Shown here in pieces: positions 51,216-57,744 of a stretch of 64,000 nucleotides of DNA. The DNA is from Tepidicaulis marinus (lineage in GTDB: Bacteria > Pseudomonadota > Alphaproteobacteria > Parvibaculales > Parvibaculaceae), in NCBI RefSeq assembly GCF_000739695.1, contig NZ_BBIO01000010.1, forward strand, positions 1-64,000, given 5' to 3'. Within the stretch, counting starts at the first letter, position 1, and every line of letters begins with the position of its first letter. The notes beneath the pieces were generated by a model. That model did no database searches. It was given only the letters and a program-made list of their open reading frames with translations, and was not told the DNA's origin. Both the position numbers and the translations under genes were made by a program.

Positions 51216-52445
51216 TTAAACGGCGGCGAGCGCCCGGTCCAGGTCTTCTATCAGGTCTTGGGAATCCTCCAAGCCGACAGAAAGCCGCAGCAGACCCGCA
51301 CTGATCCCCAGCTCCGCCCGCGCTTCCTCGGAAAGGCGCTGATGGGTGGTGGTGGCCGGATGAGTGATGAGGCTTTTGGCATCGCCCAGATTGTTGGAAA
51401 TCAGGATGATTTGAAGCGCATTGGCAAGGCGGAAGGCCGCTTCCTTGCCGCCTTTCACCTCGAGCGCGACAATATTGCCGCCCGCCGCCATCTGCCGGCG
51501 CGCAAGGGCGGCCTGCGGGTGGCTGTCGAGGGTGGGATAGAGCGTCTTTTGCACTTTGGGATGGGCGTCGAGAAAGCGGGCGACCGCCTCCCCGTTTGCC
51601 GCGTGGGCGCTGACGCGCAAGTCCAGCGTTTCCAGGCTTTTCAGCATGACCCAGGCATTGAAGGGACTGAGTGCCGGGCCCGTCTGGCGCAGGAAATTGC
51701 CCAAATGCTCGGCGATGAACTCCTCATCGGCGAGCACAATACCGCCGAGGCAGCGCCCCTGCCCATCGATATGTTTGGTGGCCGAATAGACGGTGATATC
51801 GGCGCCGAATTCGAAGGGCCGCTGCAGCACGGGCGTGGCGAAAACATTGTCCACCACCAGTCGCGCGCCCGCCTCATGGGCAATGTCGGCGACGGCCTGA
51901 AGATCGATGATTTCCAGCGTCGGGTTGGACGGCGTTTCGAGGAAAAAGACTTTCGTGTTGGGCTGCACCGCCGCCTTCCATTGCGCCAGATCCGTGCCCT
52001 CGATCAGCGTCGAGGTGATACCGAAGCGCGGCAGAAGATCTTCCACGATATAGCGGCAGGAGCCGAACAGCGCCTTGGCGGCCACCACATGGTCGCCCGC
52101 CGAAAGCTGGCAGAGCATGGCCGCCGTCACCGCCGCCATGCCCGTTGCCGTGGCGCGTGCATCGATGGTCCGTCCCCCGGGCGCGCCTTCGAGCGCGATC
52201 ATCCGTTCTTCGAACATCCGCACGGTCGGGTTGGCGAAGCGCGAGTAGATGAAGCCCGGCTCTTCGCCCTTGAAGCGGGCTTCGGCGTCTTCCGCGCTGT
52301 CATAGACATAGCCGGAGGTCAGGAACATCGCCTCGCCGGTCTCCCCGAAGGGGCTGCGGGCGGTGCCGCCATGCACCGCCTTGGTGCGGGGGCGCCAGTT
52401 CTGAGAGGGAGTTTTGGGGGTGCCGCTGCCTTGTTTCGCGCTCAT
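51216..52445 (-). CDS. metZ: O-succinylhomoserine sulfhydrylase
   Basis: 409 residues, Cys/Met-metabolism PLP family: SRFANPTVRMFEERMIALEG, PLP lysine in YSATKHIDGQGRCLGG, and the C-terminal RLSVGLEDSQDLIEDLDRAL. It combines O-succinylhomoserine and sulfide to homocysteine, the last but one step of methionine synthesis. ATG 52445 is the usual start. The frame stays open to ATG 52493 directly after GGAGG, but that codon lies in the terminator. A SAM-II riboswitch precedes it. Confidence 0.95.
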   Translation of the reverse strand: MSAKQGSGTPKTPSQNWRPRTKAVHGGTARSPFGETGEAMFLTSGYVYDSAEDAEARFKGEEPGFIYSRFANPTVRMFEERMIALEGAPGGRTIDARATATGMAAVTAAMLCQLSAGDHVVAAKALFGSCRYIVEDLLPRFGITSTLIEGTDLAQWKAAVQPNTKVFFLETPSNPTLEIIDLQAVADIAHEAGARLVVDNVFATPVLQRPFEFGADITVYSATKHIDGQGRCLGGIVLADEEFIAEHLGNFLRQTGPALSPFNAWVMLKSLETLDLRVSAHAANGEAVARFLDAHPKVQKTLYPTLDSHPQAALARRQMAAGGNIVALEVKGGKEAAFRLANALQIILISNNLGDAKSLITHPATTTHQRLSEEARAELGISAGLLRLSVGLEDSQDLIEDLDRALAAV

Positions 52446-52462
52446 CGGACGATGCCTCAAAT

Positions 52463-52487
52463 AAAAAACCCCGACCTTTGGCCGGGG
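52463..52487 (-). terminator. Terminator inside the metZ leader
   Basis: Minus strand CCCCGGCC-AAA-GGTCGGGG followed by TTTTTT. It lies between the SAM-II aptamer and metZ and is the likely expression platform of the riboswitch. Confidence 0.85.
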
Positions 52488-52496
52488 ATGCATCCT

Positions 52497-52557
52497 CCGA
52501 CCTTTTTAGCGGTTTCTTTAACGTGGCCGCAAGCCGGTCGGCTCAAATCACCACGGG
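52497..52557 (-). ncRNA. SAM-II riboswitch upstream of metZ
   Basis: On the minus strand, CCCGTGGTGATTTG and GCCGACCGG lead to CTTGCGGCCACGTTAAAG, then AACCGCTAAAAAGGTCGG. This matches the SAM-II layout: CGTGG pairs with CCACG, the conserved GTGATTTG and CTAAAAAGG flank the pseudoknot, and GACC of the loop pairs with GGTC after the A-run. SAM-II aptamers are found before methionine genes in Alphaproteobacteria. The ligand is inferred from the motif. Confidence 0.85.
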
Positions 52558-52676
52558 AATGGCAAGGTTGATACGCTTTTTGGCCCCCCGCGTCAAGAAA
52601 AGAGGCCGTGAGGGCGCGCGGAGCGGGGGTGGCGGTTTTGCTTGGAGCCGCCCTCTTGCCCTTTTATAAGGGGGGC

Positions 52677-53837
52677 ATGACGAAAGCAGCCAGCGACCTT
52701 TTCCCCGATCATGACGGCGCCTCCCTGAAGGAAGTGCGCGGTGATGCGACCCATGCCACGGGCATTCTGCCTGCCCATGCCATCCGCGCGCTGATCCGCG
52801 AAAAAGAGATCTGGGCGGCCAAGGAAATCGAGGATGCGCAGGTGCAGCCGGCAAGCCTCGATCTGCGCCTCGGCCCCGTCGCCTACCGCTTGCGGGCGAG
52901 CTTCCTGCCCGGCGAGGGGAGCGCGGTGATGGACAAGGTGGAGGAATTTGCGCTCCACAAGATCGACCTTTCCGAAGGCGCGGTGCTGGAGACGGGCTGC
53001 GTCTATCTCGTTCCGCTTCTGGAGGCGCTCGCCCTTTCCGAGCGCACGGGGGCGGCCGCCAATCCGAAAAGCTCCACCGGCCGGCTCGATATTTTCACGC
53101 GCGTCATTACGGATTTCGGCACCGAGTTCGATCAGGTCGAGCCGGGCTACAAGGGCCACCTTTATCTCGAAGTCAGCCCGCGCACCTTTCCCATTCTCGT
53201 GCGCCAGGGCTCGCGGCTCTCGCAAATCCGCTTCCGCCGGGGCGAGGCGCGCCATTCGGATACCGAGCTGCGCCACTTGCATGAGCAGCACAAGCTCGTG
53301 GATGGAGGCGAGCCCAATATCGATGGCGGGCTCGGCCTGACCGTCGATCTGTCGGGCGATCGGGAAACCGGCCTTGTCGGCTACCGGGCCAAGCGTCATT
53401 CCGCGGTCATCGATGTGGACAGGCCCGGCGCTTACGAGGTGCTCGACTTCTGGGACCCGGTCTATGTGCGAGGGGCAAAGCGGATTATTCTCGATCCGGA
53501 TGAATTTTATATCCTGGCGTCCCGCGAGGCGGTGCATGTGCCCGCCACCCATGCCGCCGAAATGGTGCCTTACAATCCGCTGGTGGGTGAATTCCGCGTC
53601 CATTATGCCGGTTTCTTCGATCCCGGTTTCGGCGCGGGCGAGGCGGGCGGCACGGGCTCGCGCGCGGTGCTGGAAGTGCGCAGCCATGAAGTGCCCTTCA
53701 TCCTCGAAGACGGGCAGATCATCGGCCGGCTCGTCTATGAGCGGCTGACGGGCAAACCCACGGCGCTATACGGCACGGGCATCGGCTCGAATTATCAGCG
53801 CCAGGGTCTCAAGCTCTCCAAACATTTCAAGTCCTGA
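52677..53837 (+). CDS. dcd: 2'-Deoxycytidine 5'-triphosphate deaminase, long form
   Basis: 386 residues, the alphaproteobacterial long form: two tandem dUTPase-fold halves. The first half has QVQPASLDLRLG and FTRVITDFGTEFDQVEPGYKGHLYLEVSPRTFPILVRQGSRLSQIRF; the second ends with YGTGIGSNYQRQGLKLSKHF. It converts dCTP to dUTP. GGGGGG precedes ATG 52677; the longer frame to 52608 runs into the metZ leader region. lrgA follows after 4 bases. Confidence 0.92.
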   Translation: MTKAASDLFPDHDGASLKEVRGDATHATGILPAHAIRALIREKEIWAAKEIEDAQVQPASLDLRLGPVAYRLRASFLPGEGSAVMDKVEEFALHKIDLSEGAVLETGCVYLVPLLEALALSERTGAAANPKSSTGRLDIFTRVITDFGTEFDQVEPGYKGHLYLEVSPRTFPILVRQGSRLSQIRFRRGEARHSDTELRHLHEQHKLVDGGEPNIDGGLGLTVDLSGDRETGLVGYRAKRHSAVIDVDRPGAYEVLDFWDPVYVRGAKRIILDPDEFYILASREAVHVPATHAAEMVPYNPLVGEFRVHYAGFFDPGFGAGEAGGTGSRAVLEVRSHEVPFILEDGQIIGRLVYERLTGKPTALYGTGIGSNYQRQGLKLSKHFKS

Positions 53838-57670: not shown

Positions 57671-57744
57671 GCGGGTGTAGCTCAATGGTAGAGCAGAAGC
57701 TTCCCAAGCTTAAGACGAGGGTTCGATTCCCTTCACCCGCTCCA
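57671..57744 (+). tRNA. tRNA-Gly (anticodon CCC)
   Basis: A 74-base cloverleaf: acceptor GCGGGTG with CACCCGC, D-arm GCTC-AATGGTA-GAGC, anticodon loop TTCCCAA (anticodon CCC), T-arm GAGGG-TTCGATT-CCCTT, and encoded CCA at the end. The anticodon stem has one G/A mismatch at its outer pair. Confidence 0.95.

Follow-up and report, generated by a model that had tools for sequence, protein, structure and literature searches.

How is metZ, the gene for O-succinylhomoserine sulfhydrylase, controlled in Tepidicaulis marinus? In the window (the whole 64,000-nucleotide stretch of contig NZ_BBIO01000010.1 analysed here), the original prediction placed a SAM-II riboswitch with a built-in choice between termination and antitermination before this gene. 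We examined the leader by covariance-model search, by folding and by comparison with the leaders of relatives. The features in the following list all lie on the minus strand and are given in the order of transcription.

52591 to 52596, minus strand: promoter -35 element TTGACG, read from the sequence; in 32 of 35 family leaders, TTGAC precedes the aptamer
52568 to 52573, minus strand: promoter -10 element TATCAA, with a 17-base spacer, read from the sequence
52485 to 52564, minus strand: SAM-II (SAM_alpha) riboswitch aptamer, RF00521 match, model positions 1-79 of 79
52550 to 52555, minus strand: P1 5' strand CGUGGU, from the cmscan structure line
52536 to 52541, minus strand: P2 pseudoknot 5' strand CCGACC, complementary to 52502..52497
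52522 to 52527, minus strand: P1 3' strand GCCACG, from the cmscan structure line
52497 to 52502, minus strand: P2 pseudoknot 3' strand GGUCGG, the switching strand, read from the sequence; it can pair with the P2 5' strand or, alternatively, with the terminator 5' arm
52480 to 52502, minus strand: antiterminator hairpin GGUCGGAGGAUGCAUCCCCGGCC (DNA GGUCGGaGGAugcaUCCCCGGCC), 9 pairs, -12.7 kcal/mol, with class-wide support
52469 to 52487, minus strand: intrinsic terminator stem-loop CCCCGGCC-AAA-GGUCGGGG (DNA CCCCGGCC-AAA-GGTCGGGG), 8 pairs, 7 of them G-C, -14.2 kcal/mol
52463 to 52468, minus strand: terminator U-tract, TTTTTT, read from the sequence
52455 to 52458, minus strand: Shine-Dalgarno sequence GAGG of metZ, read from the sequence, 3' of the terminator and not part of the aptamer
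51216 to 52445, minus strand: metZ, 409 aa, start ATG at 52445, assigned by TIGR01325

The aptamer and its place before metZ

The covariance-model search that the original prediction had proposed was carried out with cmscan against all of Rfam, and RF00521 matched end to end at 52564..52485 on the minus strand with 80 bits (E 2.1e-16), the gathering score of this model being 36 bits. The P1 stem was present in the alignment together with the P2 pseudoknot. The motif CTAAAAA-GGTCGG was also found on the minus strand, and its GGTCGG (52502..52497), which had been named as a pseudoknot strand, is the P2 3' strand and matches CCGACC in the aptamer loop perfectly, giving a duplex of -9.7 kcal/mol. 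All elements expected between 52463 and 52557 were located, on the minus strand, and only the extent needed correction, as the aptamer begins 7 bases beyond this range, at 52564.

The gene directly downstream belongs to methionine biosynthesis, in keeping with a SAM-II switch in an alphaproteobacterium: MetZ scored 566 bits against TIGR01325 (cut-off 510). Over residues 1-409 it shares 98% identity with its nearest named relative, from Rhodobiaceae bacterium UBA4490, and the next relatives were other Rhodobiaceae and Parvibaculum records. The predicted promoter TTGACG-17-TATCAA immediately precedes P1, an arrangement described for the SAM-II class by Corbino et al. (PMC1273637), and transcription would be expected to start near 52561. 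On the opposite strand, a divergent gene for a long dCTP deaminase of the PRK07559 type (52677-53837, plus strand, 602 bits) faces away from the switch, and its start is about 110 bases from the aptamer; a tRNA gene at 57671-57741 (plus strand, 71.3 bits, anticodon loop CUUCCCAAG) was read as tRNA-Gly(CCC).

A single SAM-II match, the one at metZ, was found in this genome. In the family the element occurred in 36 of 40 genomes, once per genome, and in all 27 genomes of good quality; the order-level genome search covered the same 40 genomes. Judged by its E-value, by this family-wide presence and by the class-wide tests described below, the arrangement at metZ is more than a matter of chance. 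The metZ leader RNA presumably binds SAM.

Competing hairpins in the metZ leader

Between the aptamer and the gene we found the intrinsic terminator, with its 8-bp stem and U6 tail, just where it had been proposed. The terminator 5' arm CCGGCC (52485..52480) can pair with GGTCGG through five Watson-Crick pairs and one G-U pair, and the prefix folding agrees with this alternative pairing, which the original prediction had put forward. The antiterminator hairpin is longer than had been claimed: AGGAUGCAU sits between GGUCGG and the terminator, and an inner GGA/UCC gives the hairpin three more pairs beyond GGTCGG/CCGGCC, nine in total. Such a hairpin excludes both the bound aptamer, through GGUCGG, and the terminator, through CCGGCC.

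In the prefix folding the antiterminator had a probability of 0.93-1.00 at transcript lengths of 85-94 nt (0.99-1.00 at 85-93 nt), and the equilibrium shifted to the terminator at 96 nt, when its 3' arm was complete. Once the hairpin was complete and the first U's were included, equilibrium folding preferred the terminator, which is also the stabler of the two hairpins (-14.2 kcal/mol for the terminator vs -12.7 kcal/mol for the antiterminator). To mimic the SAM-bound state, both P2 strands were blocked, and the terminator then reached a probability of 0.99. The minimum free energy of the whole leader was not remarkable (z -1.38), and its equilibrium fold, the terminator, is uninformative on the switch. 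At prefix lengths of 103-114 nt, AAAGAAACC of the aptamer (52519-52511) can pair with GGGGUUUUUU in the terminator tail (52472-52463, minus strand); this pairing would keep the antiterminator form competitive, and is possibly a product of chance.

On the basis of these structures, we propose that the SAM-II riboswitch controls metZ by transcriptional attenuation, as an OFF switch. Transcription would begin a few nucleotides upstream of P1. At low SAM, P2 would not be held, and GGUCGG would capture CCGGCC once the terminator 5' arm has been made; with the antiterminator in place, RNA polymerase would pass the U-tract and metZ would be made. When SAM is plentiful, the P1/P2 pseudoknot would be stabilised and GGUCGG held, so that the 5' arm stays free, the terminator forms and transcription ends after about 98 nt. 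Since the terminator is the stabler hairpin and is favoured at equilibrium, the switch would need a kinetic advantage for the antiterminator, and when SAM is absent only part of the transcripts may read through. Real polymerase covers the last bases, so that a preformed antiterminator would need to be displaced during the passage of the U-tract. This kinetic competition and the effect on metZ are inferred.

Leaders of relatives and other readings of the locus

In the family leaders that we read, a terminator follows the aptamer, its 3' arm is a copy or near copy of GGUCGG, and both the P2 strand and the terminator arm are conserved family-wide. In a class-wide draw, SAM-II matches were found in 190 of 385 genomes. 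For the comparative tests we analysed 140 distinct leaders, from the family and from the best-scoring of these 190 genomes, a sample that favours high-scoring aptamers; the aptamer pattern was widened to include 27 further loci, which proved on reading to be intact variants. A terminator followed the aptamer in 128 of the 140 leaders, as opposed to 23 of 140 shuffled ones, and lay at most 60 bases away in 113 of 126 leaders assigned to metZ. Terminators are also reported as the rule for alphaproteobacterial SAM-II (PMC1273637, PMC2258182), so that the contrast with other SAM-II switches implied by the original prediction does not hold. Four of 8 metA leaders had no terminator; L039, L043, L045, L047, L048 and L050 are metA-associated leaders from other families without a clear terminator near P2, and judging from these sequences, the mechanism of metA switches may not be that of metZ switches.

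In 89 of 125 leaders the P2 3' strand paired with the terminator 5' arm at all six positions, where shuffled arms would give 9.8 such leaders, and the mean duplex energy was -10.6 vs -6.9. Variants change together, as in L079, where a P2 strand GACCGG is found with a 5' arm CCGGTC. The spacer was examined by shuffling it alone while both the P2 strand and the arm were left unchanged, which makes the test independent of the arms. Real spacers gave the stabler antiterminator hairpin in 96 of 119 leaders and, outside the family, in 62 of 84 (sign test p 1.5e-5; the class sequences are related and not independent, hence p values are nominal). The terminator was the stabler of the two hairpins in 113 of 119 leaders. 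Arm swapping between loci with different P2 strands lowered the pairing only from 5.09 to 4.92 of 6 pairs; with so little variation in the P2 strand, no clear signal of covariation emerged. The comparison of relatives' leaders, suggested at the outset, therefore bears out the pairing and the spacer, while locus-specific covariation is weak. Taken class-wide, there is a reasonable case that in most alphaproteobacterial SAM-II leaders the terminator 3' arm nearly duplicates the P2 3' strand (GGUCGG), that both compete for one 5' arm, and that the antiterminator is kinetically favoured and less stable. In the literature that we found, this three-way use of one sequence across the class was not spelled out, though downstream terminators were noted.

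These comparisons also bear on a SAM-independent attenuator, in which the complementarity of GGUCGG would be a by-product of G+C-rich sequence. The terminator does beat the antiterminator at equilibrium, and G+C-rich arms pair by chance fairly often, at all six positions in about 10 of 125 shuffled sets. The observed count far exceeds that number, the spacer test favours the antiterminator independently of the arms, and both strands are conserved across the family, which leaves such an attenuator highly improbable. Under translational control, the SAM-bound P2 would either hide the ribosome-binding site, which is the mode of the Sargasso Sea metX switch, or influence translation from a distance, which has been proposed for metA of Sinorhizobium. 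This reading could draw on a GGAGG directly 3' of the P2 3' strand that is followed by an in-frame ATG (52493), and on Sinorhizobium metA, where AUG1, a terminator and AUG2 are arranged in a comparable way (PMC9373788). This ATG abuts the GGAGG with no spacer, is kept in a same-genus relative (L021) only and is absent from the other family leaders, and we rejected it as the metZ start. The usable Shine-Dalgarno sequence, GAGG (52458..52455), is about 39 bases downstream of P2, and both it and the ATG of metZ are located past the terminator and are not part of the aptamer. Because the metZ ribosome-binding site is beyond the terminator, we regard translational control as very unlikely. The ATG at 52493 (minus strand), in frame with metZ and inside the antiterminator region, recalls the AUG1/AUG2 pair of S. 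meliloti metA.

The terminated leader might also chiefly supply a trans-acting small RNA, and attenuation of metZ would then come second. A parallel is the ~100-nt RZ RNA of Sinorhizobium, which builds up when SAM is abundant and for which a trans function has been speculated on (PMC9373788). No trans target is known in Sinorhizobium, and the aptamer and switch account fully for the conservation, so we give this idea scarcely any credence. As all elements of the proposed switch check out and the design is common to relatives, SAM-dependent transcriptional attenuation is the best reading of the metZ leader, and we put its probability at close to nine in ten; the original prediction of attenuation is supported in this sense, by folding and comparison.

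Comparison with known SAM switches

The closest counterpart is the metZ leader of S. meliloti, for which SAM-induced Rho-independent termination was predicted by Scheuer et al. 2022 (PMC9373788); there, the metZ homologue yields a ~100-nt terminated RNA, higher in rich, high-SAM medium. The two leaders share the class, the gene, the predicted SAM-induced terminator and an RNA of about 100 nt, whereas S. meliloti belongs to another alphaproteobacterial family and has a second SAM-II at metA, compared with metZ only here. The Agrobacterium metA switch of Corbino et al. 2005 (PMC1273637) is alike in its aptamer class, in the promoter before P1 and in the terminator between P2 and the reading frame; it differs in its gene, metA, and the RNA probed there lacked the terminator stem. 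The aptamer fold is shared with the metX switch from the Sargasso Sea, whose crystal structure is 2QWY (cited in PMC10907184), but there the ribosome-binding site lies within P2, where translation is directly occluded, and the translational reputation of SAM-II stems from this structurally studied switch (PMC10907184, PMC9373788). The SAM-I (S-box) switches of Firmicutes likewise make a ligand-driven choice between terminator and antiterminator as OFF switches of methionine genes; their aptamer is unrelated, and their switching strand lies in the P1 helix and not, as here, in the pseudoknot (general knowledge; PMC2258182). Our literature search found no study in which termination by a SAM-II switch was assayed in vitro. 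In alphaproteobacteria, metY was described as the core target of SAM_alpha by Leyn et al. 2014 (PMC4239095).

The metZ leader is an ordinary representative of a familiar kind of switch that many alphaproteobacteria carry at the same position, and the picture of the SAM-II family is unchanged by it. The comparison shows that the terminator/antiterminator form is usual in the class, though the structurally best-known SAM-II is translational, and for Parvibaculaceae the leader provides a clean case of transcriptional control by SAM-II that lends itself to checking.
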